From: Trichlorobacter thiogenes
GTDB lineage: Bacteria; Desulfobacterota; Desulfuromonadia; Geobacterales; Pseudopelobacteraceae
Assembly: GCF_900167465.1 (NCBI RefSeq)
Contig: NZ_FUWR01000002.1
Span: 62,001 to 126,000, forward strand
Direction: 5' to 3'
DNA: 64,000 bases
The notes below the pieces were generated by a model, which was given only the letters and a program-made list of their open reading frames with translations, ran no database searches and was not told where the DNA came from. The stretch's first letter is position 1, and each line of letters opens with the position of its first letter. The translations under genes were made by a program, and so were the position numbers. This document shows, one piece after another, positions 2,589-23,827 of this stretch.

Positions 2589-3542
2589 TTATAGCCAGCC
2601 TTTGCGCTTGAAAATATAAAGCGGCAGCACAGCAGAAATGACGATCATACAAAGCGCCAGCGGGTAGCCGAAGCTGAGATCAAGCTCCGGCAGGTATTTA
2701 AAGTTCATACCGTAGATACTGGCGATCAGGGTAGGCGGCAGGAAAATGACCGACATAACGGTGAAAATCTTGATCACCTTGTTCTGTTCAATGCTTAAGA
2801 AGTTAAGGAACAGGTTCTGCAGGTAGTCAAGCCGTTCAAAGTTAAAATTGGCTGTAGTAATCAGGGAGTTTACATCCTTGATCATGATACTGAAATCGCT
2901 CTTGAGGGTGCTGGGCATCTTGCCGCTCTTCAGCAGGGAAGAGAGCACCCGTTGCTTGTCGGTCAGGTTTTCCCGGATGGTGATGTTGGTGGCCTCAAAG
3001 TCTGCCATATAGGAAAGAAACTTTTTCGTATCATCAAAGTTACTGGGGTTAAGCCGCGCAATGCTGGCTATTTCGCGGGAGACCGCCTCCAGGGTGTCGG
3101 CATCGTCTTCAATCCGCATTTCCAGGATACCCCCCATCACTCGGGCTCCATCGGTATAATGGCTGGGGTTAAGCAGCAGTTTGCGATTAAAATCACCAAA
3201 AACCGGCAGTTCAATAAAGCGGATGGTAATAACGAAATTATCTTTCAGGGTGAATGAAACCGACTCGTTGCTGGCGGTCGTCCCTTGCTTTACCAGAAAA
3301 TAGGTGTTGATGGTGATACCAAATTCATCCTCCCAATAGCGGGCAGAAAACTCGATCTCTTCAGTCTCCTGGCGGGTTGGCAGGTCAAGTCCCAGTTTCT
3401 TGTCGAGCTCACTCACCTCTGTCATACTTGGGGAAAGCATATCCACCCAGATCAACTGCTTTGATTCTATGAGATCAATCTCATCACCGCTGATCAGGTG
3501 GCTTGAAATAACACCATTTGCGTTGTAGTAGACCTTGATCAT
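2589..3542 (-). CDS. corA: CorA-type magnesium/cobalt transporter
   Basis: A 317-residue protein of the CorA family, which forms a pentameric inner-membrane channel for Mg2+ (and Co2+/Ni2+). The long soluble N-terminal part is followed by two C-terminal membrane segments. The family signature GMN is present in YGMNFKYLPEL, at the end of the first segment, and the protein ends with the short basic tail KRKGWL that is typical of the family. The ATG at 3542 has AGGAGG about 8 bases upstream. It is only 30 bases upstream of glnD on the same strand, so the two may share a transcript, although a functional link is not obvious. Confidence 0.92.
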   Translation of the reverse strand: MIKVYYNANGVISSHLISGDEIDLIESKQLIWVDMLSPSMTEVSELDKKLGLDLPTRQETEEIEFSARYWEDEFGITINTYFLVKQGTTASNESVSFTLKDNFVITIRFIELPVFGDFNRKLLLNPSHYTDGARVMGGILEMRIEDDADTLEAVSREIASIARLNPSNFDDTKKFLSYMADFEATNITIRENLTDKQRVLSSLLKSGKMPSTLKSDFSIMIKDVNSLITTANFNFERLDYLQNLFLNFLSIEQNKVIKIFTVMSVIFLPPTLIASIYGMNFKYLPELDLSFGYPLALCMIVISAVLPLYIFKRKGWL

Positions 3543-4193: not shown

Positions 4194-4544
4194 GGGGGTG
4201 TAAAGGTTTCGACGGGGGAATGAACTCCTGGGTTGCACCGGGTCGGGGCAGGTGGCCGACCTTAATAAACCTGCATGGCATTAATTGCCGACAATTATAA
4301 CACTCCTGTTGCACTAGCTGCTTAACAGGCGGTCCCGACTGAGATGTCGGTGGTAGGAAGGGACCGTCATTCACTACCGAATTGGATTGCGTAAGCCCGA
4401 TACGCCGTCTGAAATCCAGGGACCGCTGACCTGCTGTCTTGTCTGCTGTACAGCATGTCGGCTAAATTGATCAACAGACTAACGGTGTAGTAGCTCATGA
4501 TGTAGGTCTTTCGGACGTGGGTTCGACTCCCACCACCTCCACCA
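4194..4544 (+). ncRNA. ssrA: transfer-messenger RNA (tmRNA)
   Basis: One-piece tmRNA of about 351 bases. The 5' end GGGGGTG pairs with CACCTCC near the 3' end to form the 7-bp acceptor stem, followed by the discriminator A and encoded CCA. The T arm (GTGGG-TTCGACT-CCCAC) is perfect, and the conserved TTTCGACGGGG follows the 5' end. The tag reading frame runs 4287-4325 from resume codon GCC and encodes ADNYNTPVALAA then TAA; the LAA end is the ClpXP/ClpAP degron. The 3' end is the integration site of the downstream island, which restores a complete gene. Confidence 0.96.
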
Positions 4545-19546: not shown

Positions 19547-21214
19547 ATGCTTACCGAACTGTCCATCCGCAATGTTGCCATTATTGACCAGCTGCAGCTT
19601 TCCTTTAAGGCAGGCCTGAACATCCTGAGCGGTGAGACCGGCGCTGGCAAGTCGATTATTATCGATGCCCTGACCCTGGTCTGTGGCGGTCGTGCAGCAA
19701 CCGACCTGATCCGTTCCGGTGAAGATGAGGCAACCGTCGAGGCTCTGTTTGATCTCGGTTCACTGCCATTGCTGCAGTCTCAGTTGCAGGAGTCGGGCAT
19801 TGAGGTGGCTGATGAGTTGTTGGTGAAACGTTGTCTTTCCCGTAACGGCAAAAACCGGGTCTATATCAACGGTTCGCTGGCAACCCTGGCGCAGTTGACC
19901 GGGCTTGGACGGCAACTGGTCACCATCCACGGCCAGCATGAATCCCAGGGGCTGCTGCGGCCTGAGTATCATCTGGTGCTGTTGGATGCCTTTGCCAATA
20001 CCACAGGGCTGAGACAGCAGGTTGCTGTTGCATTTGAACAGTGGAAACAGATTACAGAGCGTCTGGCGCATTTTGATGAGCAGGAGCGGGATACCGCCAG
20101 AAGGATTGACCTGCTGGCCTATCAGGTGGAAGAGATCAGTGCAGCAGAACTGAAGGCTGGTGAAGAGGAAGAGCTTGAGGAACAACAGCGGCTGCTGGCC
20201 AATGCAGAACGGCTGGCCTGCACCACCGGCTCTGCCTATGAGGCGCTCTACGGCGGTGATCAGGCCTTGCTGGGGGAGCTGAAGCGGGTAACCGCTGCCA
20301 TGGCTGAGGCAGCAAAGATTGATATAGCACTTGCCCCTCTGCACAGCATGCTGGATGAGGGCTACCTGCAGCTTGAGGATGCGGCCCTGCAACTGCGGGA
20401 CTATGCTGCACGGATTGAGGCAGAGCCGGAGCAGTTGAAGCAGGTTGATGATCGCCTGGATCTGCTGACCCGTCTGAAACGCAAATACGCACCAACCGTG
20501 GAAGAGGTGATTGCACTGGGGGCCACCCTTGCAGCAGAGCTTGAAGAGCTGCAGGGGCGGAGCAGATCCCGTGATGAGCTGCAGCAGGAGCTGGCTGATC
20601 AGCGCACGACCCTTGAAAAACTGGGGGCGGAACTGAGTAAAAAACGCCGTGCTGCCGCTGTTGAGCTTGAAAAGCAGCTTGCCGCAGAGACCCGTCAGCT
20701 TGCCATGCCCCATGCCGTGATGCAGGTGGCGTTTGAACCGCTTGCTGAGCCGCGGGGCAGCGGTTTTGAAAAGGTAGAGTTTCTGTTTTCACCCAACCCT
20801 GGTGAACCGCCCCGTCCTCTGGGTAAAGTGGCGTCCGGTGGTGAGCTTTCCCGTCTGATGCTGGCCTTTAAACAGGTACTGCCTGAAGGTGAAGCGCCAA
20901 CTATGGTGTTTGATGAGGTGGATACCGGGGTGGGTGGGGCAGTTGCCGGTGTGGTGGGGCGCAAGCTGCGGAACCTGGCAACCGGTCAACAGGTCTTCTG
21001 CGTGACCCATCTACCCCAGGTGGCTGCCTGGGCCATGCAGCATATCCGGGTTGAAAAGCTTGTTGAGAACGGTAGAACAACCACCATAGTGCATGAACTG
21101 GATCAGGACGGCCAGATACAGGAAATCGCCCGGATGCTGGCAGGTGAGCAGATTACCGAGGCTGCCAGAGACCATGCCCGTGAACTGATCGCGCAGGCCG
21201 CAACCGTATCGTAA
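19547..21214 (+). CDS. recN: DNA repair protein RecN
   Basis: A 555-residue SMC-like ATPase used in repair of double-strand breaks. The Walker A motif GETGAGKS is at residues 29-36, the middle is a long coiled coil (roughly 160-370, with KAGEEEELEEQQRLLANAER), and the C-terminal part has the ABC signature (ASGGELSRLMLAFKQ) and Walker B (TMVFDEVDTGVGG). The protein starts at the first ATG 6 bases after nadK, with the nadK stop region providing a G-rich ribosome binding site. RecN genes are often SOS-controlled; no LexA-like palindrome was seen directly before nadK or recN. Confidence 0.96.
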   Translation: MLTELSIRNVAIIDQLQLSFKAGLNILSGETGAGKSIIIDALTLVCGGRAATDLIRSGEDEATVEALFDLGSLPLLQSQLQESGIEVADELLVKRCLSRNGKNRVYINGSLATLAQLTGLGRQLVTIHGQHESQGLLRPEYHLVLLDAFANTTGLRQQVAVAFEQWKQITERLAHFDEQERDTARRIDLLAYQVEEISAAELKAGEEEELEEQQRLLANAERLACTTGSAYEALYGGDQALLGELKRVTAAMAEAAKIDIALAPLHSMLDEGYLQLEDAALQLRDYAARIEAEPEQLKQVDDRLDLLTRLKRKYAPTVEEVIALGATLAAELEELQGRSRSRDELQQELADQRTTLEKLGAELSKKRRAAAVELEKQLAAETRQLAMPHAVMQVAFEPLAEPRGSGFEKVEFLFSPNPGEPPRPLGKVASGGELSRLMLAFKQVLPEGEAPTMVFDEVDTGVGGAVAGVVGRKLRNLATGQQVFCVTHLPQVAAWAMQHIRVEKLVENGRTTTIVHELDQDGQIQEIARMLAGEQITEAARDHARELIAQAATVS

Positions 21215-21235
21215 CAATTTTTTACCGCTACATAC

Positions 21236-21265
21236 TTGACAGTGGATCGCAACCTATGCTTTTAT
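21236..21265 (+). promoter_or_regulatory. Candidate promoter of the aromatic leader/aroF unit
   Basis: TTGACA (21236-21241), 18 bases, TTTTAT (21260-21265). The predicted start is within a base or two of the leader peptide ATG at 21273, so the leader may be translated from a leaderless transcript. TATGCT at 21255-21260 is another -10-like sequence but would be too close. Confidence 0.5.
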
Positions 21266-21272
21266 CCCTTCC

Positions 21273-21368
21273 ATGAACTCCTTCTATCGCTTTGCATCTT
21301 TTTTCGGGTTTTTTTGGTACGGCTTTTATTTTACGCCGTCTGCCCGGGCAAGGGTGTACGCGGTTTAG
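21273..21368 (+). CDS. Aromatic leader peptide controlling the DAHP synthase gene
   Basis: A 31-codon frame, ATG to TAG, encoding MNSFYRFASFFGFFWYGFYF then TPSARARVYAV. It holds 8 Phe, 4 Tyr and 1 Trp, twelve of them within 17 residues (positions 4-20). Such density is the hallmark of transcription-attenuation leaders (as in pheL or trpL). It sits in front of an intrinsic terminator and the gene for the first step of aromatic synthesis. No Shine-Dalgarno is visible, but the promoter position suggests leaderless translation; a 6-codon frame (ATG at 21256) also ends in an ATGA overlap with this start and might couple to it. Confidence 0.85.
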   Translation: MNSFYRFASFFGFFWYGFYFTPSARARVYAV

Positions 21369-21432
21369 GAGCAAAAAACCGATTACACATCCAAAAGCCG
21401 GGGCAGACGGAACAAGTCTCCCCGGCTTTTTT
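21336..21432 (+). promoter_or_regulatory. Attenuator: antiterminator/terminator pair before aroF
   Basis: Terminator: AAAAGCCGGGG (21393-21403) pairs perfectly with CCCCGGCTTTT (21420-21430), followed by TT. Antiterminator: CCGTCTGCCCGG (21336-21347), inside the leader peptide frame just after the last dense aromatic codons, pairs with CCGGGGCAGACGG (21398-21410), which overlaps the left arm of the terminator. A ribosome stalled on Phe/Tyr/Trp codons would leave 21336-21347 free and let transcription continue; normal translation to the TAG would cover it and favour termination. Confidence 0.85.
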
Positions 21433-21508
21433 CGTTTAACGCGGTAGAAACGATACAAGGCCGGGGGACTCCTCCAGGCCTTTTGCTTTTGGGAAAAAGG
21501 AGCGAGAG

Positions 21509-22528
21509 ATGATCATCGTCATGAAGGCAGGCGCAGGCAAGAAAGACAGGGATGAAGTGGTGAAACGGATCAAGGAACTGGGGTACAAACCCCACATTAT
21601 TCACGGCACCACCAGAGACGTGATTGGCGCCATTGGGGACGAACGGGGCAAGCTGGTCTTGCACTCGCTTGAGAACATGCATGGCGTTGAAAGCGTTGTG
21701 CCGATCCTGCAGCCGTACAAACTGGCCTCCAGCGAGGTAAAGCATGAGCCCAGCCAGGTGAAGGTGGGCGACAGTGTGGTGATCGGTGGTGATAAGGTGG
21801 TAGTGATGGCTGGTCCCTGCTCGGTGGAGAGTGAGGAGCAGATTATTGAAAGTGCAAGGTTGGTAAAAGCGGCGGGAGCCACCATGCTGCGCGGTGGCGC
21901 CTTCAAGCCCCGTACTTCGCCCTATTCATTCCAGGGGCTGGAAGAAGAGGGGCTGAAGATGCTGGCCAAGGCCCGTGAGCTGACCGGTCTGCCGTTTGTA
22001 ACCGAGGTGATCAACCCGGAAACGGTGGATCTGGTGGCTGACTATGCCGACATGCTGCAGATCGGCGCCCGCAACTCCCAGAACTTCGCCCTGTTAAAGA
22101 AGGTTGGCCAGTGCGGCAAACCGATCCTGCTCAAGCGTGGTATGGCTATGACTATTCAGGAATTTTTGATGAGCGCTGAATACATCATGAGTGAGGGGAA
22201 CCAGGGGGTGATCCTGTGTGAACGGGGGATTCGTACCTTTGAGACTGCTACCCGTAACACGCTGGATCTTTCAGCCATTCCGGTCCTGAAGATGAAGACC
22301 CACCTGCCGATCGTAATTGATCCATCCCACGGAACCGGCAACTATCACTATGTAGCGCCAATGTGCTATGCCGCTGTGGCAGCCGGTGCGGATGCCCTGA
22401 TTGTGGAGGTACACCCTGATCCTGAGCGGGCCTCCAGCGACGGCCCGCAATCACTGAAGCCAAAGAAGTTTGCTGCTATGATGGAAAAGCTGCGGCTGTT
22501 TGCCGAGGCGGATGGACGTAGTCTGTAG
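21509..22528 (+). CDS. aroF: 3-deoxy-7-phosphoheptulonate (DAHP) synthase, type I beta
   Basis: A 339-residue enzyme joining phosphoenolpyruvate and erythrose-4-phosphate, the first step of the shikimate pathway. The first 70 residues ([20 protein letters not shown]...) form the ferredoxin-like regulatory domain of the type I beta class, followed by the TIM-barrel core with [40 protein letters not shown] and [14 protein letters not shown] stands about 7 bases before the ATG. Upstream are an aromatic-rich leader peptide and attenuator, so aromatic supply is expected to control transcription in addition to feedback on the N-terminal domain. The gene symbol varies between species (aroF/aroG). 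Confidence 0.94.
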
Positions 22529-22537
22529 ATCTGCTGT

Positions 22538-22578
22538 TACGGTAAAGGCTGCTCAGGAATCTGGCAGCCTTTACCGTA
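22538..22578. terminator. Bidirectional terminator between aroF and the GAF/HD-GYP gene
   Basis: A perfect 15-bp stem: TACGGTAAAGGCTGC (22538-22552) with its complement at 22564-22578. It lies between convergent stop codons (22528 and 22580). No long T tract, so efficiency is uncertain. Confidence 0.7.
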
Positions 22579-22579
22579 G

Positions 22580-23827
22580 CTAGCCATGGGCATCCGGGTC
22601 ATCCGGGAACTGGGCACCCAGCTGGCGGATGGCATCAATACTGTCCAGGAAAACCTCCATCAGCTCTGGGTCAAAAAAGGTCCCGGCATCTTTTTTCAGA
22701 GTTTCGAGAACCTCGTCCTGATCCCATGCCTCTTTGTAACAGCGCCGGTTTGAGAGGGCGTCATAGACATCAGCAATGGACACAATCCGTCCAAAGAGTG
22801 GTATCTCTTCCCCTTTTTTTCCCCGTGCTGTGCCATCTTCCTTTTCATAGCCAGGTAGTGGTTTTAGGGTGGCCAGGCTGATATGGCCGGGGTAGCCGTT
22901 GCCATCCCAGCGTTCATGGTGATTCAGGGCAACAGCAGCAGCAGATTCGTCAAACTCTGAGTACAGGTCAGGAAATAGCCGGGCGCCATAGACGGTATGC
23001 AGTTTCATGACATCATACTCTTCCGGGGTAAATTTACCCGGCTTCTTCAGGATATTGTCCGAGATAGCCACCTTACCGACATCATGCAGCATGGCTGCCA
23101 TCCGCAGGATATCCCGGGTCCGGTCAATCTCATCCTGCTCCAGCCCCCTTTTGGCTGCCCAGCCTTCATAGAGTGCCACCGAATAGGCAGCCACCCGATT
23201 GACGTGGGGGCCGGTCTCTTTCGGATCCCGCAGCTCTGCCATCCGGTTCATCCGCAGGATGATTTCGCGGGTCATCTTGGCCCGTTCAATGGCGTTGGCT
23301 GCAGTAACGGCAAAGTAGCTGATGCCACTCTCGTCATTAACGTCAAAAGCGCCAACCGCACCGTTTGATTCCTTGGCGTTGATCAGTTGCAGCACTCCAA
23401 CGGTCTCGCCCCGCATGCTGGTCAGCGGCAGTACCAGTTGCGAGATGGTACGATAGCCGGTCAGGTCGTCAAAGGAGTTGTTAAAGGAGTAGGGCAGGTT
23501 AGGGTCAAGCTGGTAGACGTCCGGGATGTTAAGCTGATTGCCGGTGGCTGCCACGTAGCCAGCAATGGAGGTGTTGTCCACTTTGATGATGATGTTGCTG
23601 TAAACCGATTTCCGGTGTGCAGCCAGTTGGGTGTTGATGGTGTCATTTTGTGAATAACGGGCTGCAAGCCAGTTGCCGTCTTTGATGTAAATGGTACCTG
23701 CATCGCAGTTGGTAAAACGGCGTGCTTCAGACAAGATCTTTTCCAGCAGGAAGTCAATATCCTTGATCTGGGAAATATCCAGTCCAAAATCAAGAAGTTG
23801 TTGTAATGTCTCATTTTGATTTTTCAT
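22580..23827 (-). CDS. GAF domain-containing HD-GYP phosphodiesterase
   Basis: A 415-residue cytoplasmic signalling protein. Residues about 20-180 form a GAF sensor domain (DIDFLLEKILSEARR, LVLPLTSMRGETVGVLQLINAK), followed by an HD-GYP domain of about 200-400 with HDVGK near 250 and HHERWDGNGYPGH near 310. HD-GYP proteins break down cyclic di-GMP; the metal-binding H and D and the GYP triad are intact, so activity is likely. No membrane segment is seen, so the GAF domain probably senses a cytoplasmic ligand. The insert between GYP and the next conserved helix (KEDGTARGKKGEE) is longer than in many relatives. It stands alone, convergent with aroF. Confidence 0.92.
   Translation of the reverse strand: MKNQNETLQQLLDFGLDISQIKDIDFLLEKILSEARRFTNCDAGTIYIKDGNWLAARYSQNDTINTQLAAHRKSVYSNIIIKVDNTSIAGYVAATGNQLNIPDVYQLDPNLPYSFNNSFDDLTGYRTISQLVLPLTSMRGETVGVLQLINAKESNGAVGAFDVNDESGISYFAVTAANAIERAKMTREIILRMNRMAELRDPKETGPHVNRVAAYSVALYEGWAAKRGLEQDEIDRTRDILRMAAMLHDVGKVAISDNILKKPGKFTPEEYDVMKLHTVYGARLFPDLYSEFDESAAAVALNHHERWDGNGYPGHISLATLKPLPGYEKEDGTARGKKGEEIPLFGRIVSIADVYDALSNRRCYKEAWDQDEVLETLKKDAGTFFDPELMEVFLDSIDAIRQLGAQFPDDPDAHG

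Follow-up and report, generated by a model that had tools for sequence, protein, structure and literature searches.

The gene for a type I-beta DAHP synthase in Trichlorobacter thiogenes is preceded by what is very probably a ribosome-mediated transcription attenuator that controls the first step of aromatic amino-acid synthesis. Within the 64,000-nucleotide stretch of DNA that we analysed (contig NZ_FUWR01000002.1, positions 62,001 to 126,000; hereafter the window), and in the corresponding sequences of relatives, we could read the codons of a short leader, its alternative helices and their covariation, the spacing of its promoter, and its association with the gene. The mechanism is classical attenuation.

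The attenuator region lies behind recN (19547-21214) and begins with a -35 hexamer, TTGACA, that is read in the sequence at 21236-21241 on the plus strand and is kept as TTGAC[A/T] in relatives. A predicted extended -10-like element (TGc-TTTTAT, 21257-21265, plus strand; 18-nt spacer), backed by the relatives' consensus anchored on TTGACA, ends 7 nt 5′ of the ATG of the leader peptide ORF (21273-21368, plus strand), and this ATG is the predicted transcription start. The pairing arms that follow are all on the plus strand. Arm 1 (21316-21323), the tip of a protector hairpin inside the control codons, folds with arm 2 (21336-21347), which covers codons P-S-A-R and is the left arm of an antiterminator. 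The right arm of the antiterminator, arm 3 (21398-21410), shares bases with the left arm (21393-21403) of an intrinsic terminator, T1 (21393-21432; right arm 21420-21430, U-run 21427-21432). A second conserved hairpin with a T-rich tail (arms 5 and 6, 21457-21482) comes next, and its left arm (21457-21466) is complementary to arm 4 (21420-21429) too. The gene itself has a Shine-Dalgarno (SD) sequence, AGGAG, read at 21498-21502 on the plus strand, and encodes a type I-beta DAHP synthase (PRK08673/TIGR01361; 21509-22528, plus strand) that scores 511 bits with NCBIfam NF006421 and 400 bits with TIGR01361, both above cut-off. It appears to stand alone as a single-gene unit because the next gene (22580-23827), which is HD-domain phosphodiesterase-like with a best NCBIfam match under cut-off, is on the opposite, minus strand and convergent with it. 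Elsewhere in the window there is a tmRNA gene (4194-4544; Rfam RF00023, 150 bits). We note that a simple promoter and terminator scanner called none of the attenuator's elements in 21100-22700; its rules demand an A at position 2 of the -10 element, which TTTTAT fails, and an ungapped stem closing a loop of 3-8 nt, whereas 16 nt separate the arms of the 11-bp T1 stem.

A conserved run of aromatic codons in the leader

The leader ORF encodes MNSFYRFASFFGFFWYGFYFTPSARARVYAV, with eight Phe, four Tyr and one Trp among its 31 codons, so that both the counts and the coordinates given for this frame in the initial annotation are correct. Among the 461 ATG ORFs of 15-60 amino acids in the window it is the sole one with at least eight F/Y/W in any 14 codons (its best stretch has ten, the runner-up six), and 13 F/Y/W were reached by 4 of 83,018 open-frame letter shuffles. 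The expectation that the aromatic codons would be conserved is borne out by the best 80 loci from a DAHP synthase scan of public genomes, 79 of which have the leader (80 of 81 loci with the window included). The exception, L036, lacks the leader, and upstream of position 3001 at this locus the DAHP synthase gene is, by eye, preceded directly by a response-regulator-like gene. Across the 80 leaders the Trp codon is always TGG, and an aromatic residue directly precedes it in 97%. Counted from this Trp, aromatic residues occupy positions -3 to +1 and +3 to +5 in 79-100% of leaders (+3 to +5 in 90-100%). The aromatic class is kept while the codons vary, TTT, TTC, TAT and TAC exchanging with one another. 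The invariance of the Trp codon may partly reflect a constraint on the RNA, because this codon also sits in the protector hairpin. Across many loci of the host's class the peptide pattern FW[YFC]G[FY] recurs. After the aromatic run, nucleotides resembling CCGTCTGCCCGG translate to PSAR in the window but to SRLPG in L009 and to TGLPG in L157; the nucleotides of arm 2 are thus kept though the frame shifts, indicating that conservation there is of the RNA and not of the peptide.

Mutually exclusive helices in the leader RNA

The leader region folds with a z of -5.1 against 200 dinucleotide shuffles. An inverted-repeat search of the window recovered the perfect 11-bp terminator stem reported initially (21393-21403 with 21420-21430; 11 nt, 100%) as well as alternative arms at 21336-21349 and 21397-21410 (14 nt, 93%), and the exclusive pairing that had been proposed, 21336-21347 with 21398-21410, comprises 12 bp with one bulged G. 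In an alignment of 40 of the 80 leaders picked for diversity (A1), RNAalifold selects the antiterminator (2:3) without prompting. Its 12 pairs are formed in 91.2% of 478 cells, seven of them are changed on both sides, and no slid register exceeds 50.4% paired. The covariation that the initial annotation had proposed to look for is therefore present: these changes are compensatory, and none of 500 shuffles equals the antiterminator on four of five measures, the fifth, further pair types, being reached by 2 of 500. For T1, 81.7% of 596 cells are paired with 26 double-change cells (0/500 shuffles), a count flattered by the exclusion from A1 of nine Geomonas/Citrifermentans-type loci; its number of pairs with a double change was reached by 17 of 500 shuffles, and its register is not unique, a one-column slide still giving 70.2% paired and 21 double-change cells. 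In the same 40 sequences the tip helix of the protector (1:2) is paired in 92.5% of cells, its outer helices in 43.2% and 50.6%, and the full protector stem in 59.3% of 1211 cells, a value attained by 38 of 500 shuffles.

The nine Geomonas/Citrifermentans-type loci (L011, L014, L017, L022, L025, L027, L031, L034 and L042) keep the leader and arms 2 and 3. The run of four T after T1 is missing in eight of them (L027 has four), and three to four T stand behind the second hairpin in eight (L034 has two); termination may have shifted to the second hairpin at these loci.

Predicted switching of the leader

In the attenuator proposed here, the leader peptide would be translated while transcription goes on. 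When charged tRNA-Phe, -Tyr or -Trp is scarce, the ribosome would stall at the aromatic codons (roughly 13-18 in the window) and leave arm 2 free, so that 2:3 would pair, T1 would be blocked and the DAHP synthase gene would be transcribed. When all three are plentiful, the ribosome would proceed and cover arm 2, which would then fold with arm 1, and arms 3 and 4 would form T1, at which transcription would stop. Stalling, the set of amino acids that count, termination and the leaderless start discussed below are the steps that we infer; a response to each of Phe, Tyr and Trp would be expected from the leader codons only. Geobacter relatives can be grown and engineered, so these predictions are testable.

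We simulated the switch by masked folding, an equilibrium calculation in which the RNA is masked to 13 nt beyond the start of the A-site codon, the footprint being an assumed one. For the window, 2:3 has a P of 0.56-0.97 with the A-site at codons 13-18 and T1 a P of at least 0.81 with the A-site elsewhere, such that antitermination is predicted solely for stalls at codons 13-18. With the RNA ending after arm 3, 2:3 is lost in all 40 sequences once the A-site passes W+3 or W+4, which is where the aromatic run of the leaders ends. With T1 complete and the ribosome stalled at the Trp codon, the mean P over the 40 sequences is 0.26 for 2:3 versus 0.41 for T1; since equilibrium thus favours T1 in many relatives despite the stall, the switch there must be kinetic.

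These data also bear on whether the leader peptide is an ancestral one that no longer regulates in this genome, where the element would act as a constitutive premature terminator or a stability element. Such a loss would fit with the absence of a leader at L036 and the eroded U-run of T1 in eight relatives, but the parts are intact in the window (a 2:3 helix of 12 bp, T1 with 11 bp and six T), where the simulation also switches more sharply than in the average relative, and we regard loss of regulation as very improbable.

Leaders of this kind are widespread and precede different first-step enzymes

A covariance model built from the leader (R1) has one significant site in the genome of T. thiogenes (E 7.9e-28; next E 0.67) and matches 240 of 277 genomes, and 77 of 82 genera, of the host's class; the 37 class genomes in which R1 gave no match include incomplete ones. 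At all 69 class loci that we read from the 240 R1-positive genomes a DAHP synthase gene lies downstream on the same strand as the leader, at a spacing of 220-295 nt in 67 cases (about 332 nt in L121, and 341 nt in L118, where the alignment begins inside the protein). At a per-genome E of 0.01, R1 has matches in 79 of the 395 genomes of the host's phylum, with class members counted in. We fetched the 17 best-scoring R1 loci outside the class, and a first-step enzyme comes next in 16. Nine of these enzymes are I-beta DAHP synthases; the frame is split in L175, L156 and L163 stay under NCBIfam cut-offs, and tblastn alone identifies the other six. Three are I-alpha, assigned by HMM in L164 and L172 and from a near-identical start in L169, and the remaining four are ADH synthases by HMM. 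The gene at the seventeenth locus, L159, had no NCBIfam match at 1e-20 and is not a first-step enzyme; by eye it resembles an ABC substrate-binding protein. The R1 match there (E 2.1e-7) falls on a Tyr-containing short ORF with antiterminator-like arms, and is either due to chance or marks another attenuator.

A family search that did not depend on the leader found ADH synthase (TIGR01949) in 93 of 297 phylum genomes, with 76 above cut-off. Of the 30 loci that score best in it, some of them near-identical, 26 carry an aromatic ORF (at least seven aromatic residues in 14) upstream, and 24 of these 26 have a terminator by a crude rule, as compared with 0/30 aromatic ORFs on the reverse strand and 2/238 in other windows. 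These controls, together with the shuffles described above (4 of 83,018), rule out a chance ORF. For the type I-alpha DAHP synthase an aromatic leader was found at 3 of 30 loci, against 1 of 30 on the reverse strand. L234 was entered as a miss though its genome has a weak R1 match before the gene (E 0.003). The gene-finding rule chose a doubtful frame at L186 in the ADH synthase set and at L206, L220, L227, L230 and perhaps more loci in the I-alpha set, and the numbers of genes counted as lacking a leader are therefore upper bounds in both sets. We examined alternative pairing of the terminator's left arm in 29 leaders with a terminator hairpin, 26 from ADH synthase loci (including L197, just below the seven-residue bar) and three from I-alpha loci. 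A pairing with z < -2 against letter shuffles was present in 23 of the 29, though in four of these (L194, L195, L196 and L205) the best pairing starts past the leader stop; the other six leaders showed none below that z.

The leaders before ADH synthase differ in sequence yet retain the aromatic run, and this variety suggests sub-families or several origins. Leader peptides ending in CASTFK, GLPTVS and ACGREL are seen among L176-L205. Because leaders stand before ADH synthase and the I-alpha enzyme as well, control appears to go with the reaction rather than with a single gene family; if this is so, control is attached to the metabolic step and not to the gene, for ADH synthase as for both types of DAHP synthase. 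T. thiogenes itself has three DAHP synthases, and of the five genes that we examined in its genome the one at 21509-22528 has an aromatic leader. No such leader was found before the second I-beta DAHP synthase gene (L002, by eye), the I-alpha gene (L214), the best match to trpE (L236) or the prephenate dehydratase gene (L238).

A strong, conserved RNA structure is also what one would expect if the leader RNA sensed its signal otherwise, as a T-box, a riboswitch or the target of an RNA-binding protein such as TRAP, with the aromatic ORF being incidental. The distance from the ATG to arm 2 speaks on both sides: 67 of 78 distances are in one frame (57 at 64 nt and 10 at 61 nt; two not located), whereas 11 of 78 lie off this main frame, found with a search pattern that itself tolerates one-base slack. 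Against an incidental ORF, aromatic identity is kept as codons change, and the aromatic run persists in the divergent leaders before ADH synthase. Rfam scans exclude a T-box, a riboswitch and a known Rfam leader: at gathering scores the window holds the tmRNA and no leader, and ten related loci scanned at E 0.5 gave no relevant match (one tRNA, and three weak, unrelated matches that fall short of gathering scores). A different sensor is thus hardly credible, and we favour the ribosome-mediated attenuator.

A probable leaderless start of the leader in Geobacterales

In Geobacterales, all 80 leaders have TTGAC[A/T] 35-38 nt 5′ of their ATG, in agreement with the earlier suggestion, made from the promoter position in the window, that translation is leaderless; a C or T directly precedes the ATG in 79 of 80. 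We also applied one start-codon rule to all groups (L054 of Geobacterales and L126 of the other orders were skipped). Under this uniform rule TTGACA stands 34-39 nt before the ATG in 77 of 79 Geobacterales leaders and an SD-like motif in 1 of 79, with 7/8 and 0/8, respectively, at eight further Geobacterales loci; for the other orders of the class the figures are 0/30 and 16/30. With TTGACA 34-39 nt before the AUG and almost no SD, initiation at the Geobacterales leader is probably leaderless. In a DAHP synthase tree with a midpoint root, an unsettled bootstrap and groups labelled by order, a 100/100 branch splits Geobacterales from the other orders, and L036 falls inside the Geobacterales side. 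We infer that the leader turned leaderless once, at the base of Geobacterales, and the direction from SD-led to leaderless is indicated by the presence of an SD at 10 of 17 loci outside the class, as counted by a rule favouring SD. The SD-led and leaderless versions of one attenuator would constitute a natural experiment on initiation and attenuator response.

Relation to known attenuators

The pheL-pheA and trp attenuators of enterobacteria serve branch-specific genes and have SD-led leaders. Attenuation of aroF in C. glutamicum reportedly goes back to a study by Neshat et al. in 2014, and that of aroF in E. coli is said to have been proposed by Camakaris in 1980. The enterobacterial systems, which are named in PMC11802643, have the same 1:2, 2:3 and 3:4 logic as the attenuator described here; unlike them, the latter would read three amino acids with a single leader, at the first step that all three share. 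A close likeness is the aroR leader upstream of aroF in C. glutamicum, where an aromatic-codon leader peptide (Phe-Tyr-Phe) before a DAHP synthase gene mediates ribosome-dependent attenuation (PMC11802643, PMC4046766). That host is an actinobacterium and the excerpts of these sources leave Trp unmentioned, whereas the leader of T. thiogenes has eight Phe, four Tyr and one invariant Trp and, as far as those excerpts allow a comparison, differs in being conserved as an RNA throughout a class. For D. vulgaris a putative attenuator before aroA′ > aroB′ was taken from a prediction database in 2005 (PMC1173090 Table 7), and the same table has putative attenuators before aroA-I-beta and aroA-I-alpha operons, e.g. 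aroA-I-beta in Thermus. The D. vulgaris element stands before an ADH-synthase-type first step, like the ADH synthase leaders reported here; the portions of that source available to us cover one species and give no leader peptide, codons or structure, and the aromatic leader at 26 of the 30 best-scoring ADH synthase loci goes beyond that listing. In E. coli and Shewanella an attenuator sensing tRNA-Tyr has been proposed for aroF (PMC2659441, PMC8632094), which is likewise attenuation of a DAHP synthase gene, though by its description in these partial sources the enzyme is a Tyr-sensitive, gammaproteobacterial one. The uORFC-13-1 motif upstream of aroF in Acholeplasma has a predicted uORF that codes for Phe, together with a terminator, before a DAHP synthase; according to the excerpt it belongs to another lineage, with an RBS, at least one Phe residue and 24 sequences (PMC8632094).

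The initial annotation held that control of this kind is not commonly described. This stands for the Geobacter group, for whose relatives no description of the attenuator appears in the open literature among the matches listed (mostly titles or the start of abstracts), but not elsewhere, where there are precedents including aroR-aroF of C. glutamicum. Those matches likewise yielded no description of the class-wide element, the aromatic leaders of ADH synthase, a leaderless start within the group or the tandem arrangement described below. If our reading is true, aromatic-codon attenuation at the shared first step is general in a large bacterial lineage and not an isolated case.

The trpL attenuator of S. 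meliloti offers a parallel for the start of the leader, as its attenuator RNA, rnTrpL, begins at the ATG of the leader ORF (PMC7298713). According to the part of that source available, the leaderless start is reported there, whereas here it is deduced, and trpL responds to Trp only, before trpE(G) in an alphaproteobacterium, as opposed to three amino acids and a DAHP synthase. By analogy with rnTrpL and peTrpL, the terminated leader RNA or the peptide might act in trans besides controlling the gene in cis, a proposal compatible with the attenuator and not exclusive of it. Termination would release a small leaderless mRNA resembling rnTrpL, as the excerpt describes it (PMC7298713), and FW[YFC]G[FY] is found in many class loci. 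The peptide after the aromatic run, however, shifts frame (L009, L157), and cis control suffices to explain the conservation of the codons; we consider action in trans unlikely.

A second hairpin and a possible cascade

The second hairpin (21457-21482) is paired in 95.3% of 400 cells of A1 with 24 double-change cells (0/500 shuffles), and its number of pairs with a double change is equalled in 28 of 500 shuffles. In 59 of the 76 leaders (of 80) where it was located, at least four T fall within the 8 nt that follow. Arm 5 is complementary to arm 4 over 10 nt at 90% by the inverted-repeat search of the window, and in A1 this 4:5 helix is paired in 96.0% of 400 cells with four double-change cells (0/500 shuffles), as compared with six when it is slid by one column.

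The attenuator may accordingly be a domino in which one stall flips two serial gates, with the leaderless leader ORF of Geobacterales derived from an SD-led one, a reading that we put forward tentatively. Under starvation 2:3 and 4:5 would form and two successive terminators would open; under plenty 3:4 and 5:6 would form and both would close. For the window the simulation gives 2:3 and 4:5 at a P of about 1 through the second hairpin with the ribosome stalled at Trp, and 3:4 and 5:6 with the ribosome at the stop codon. In the stalled state of the 40 sequences, 4:5 exceeds 0.5 in 35 before arm 6 is made and in 12 after. With equilibrium folding to the end of 5:6, a switch of more than 0.3 is seen in 25 of 80 leaders, and in two of the nine of the Geomonas type. 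The 4:5 helix may also be a by-product of two similar hairpins, because arms 3 and 5 are near repeats; pairing of a leader's own arms 4 and 5 beats foreign pairing in 25 of 40 only, with a mean difference of 0.4 kcal. In L055 arms 4 and 5 co-vary while arm 6 is unchanged, and in L082 4:5 is retained and arm 6 lost. Of 30 distant class loci 18 surpass 98% of shuffles, a count that, like the near repeats, the comparison with foreign arms and the 25 of 80 switching leaders, speaks against the 4:5 switch as a general rule; the second hairpin is present, by eye, in about 24 of these 30.
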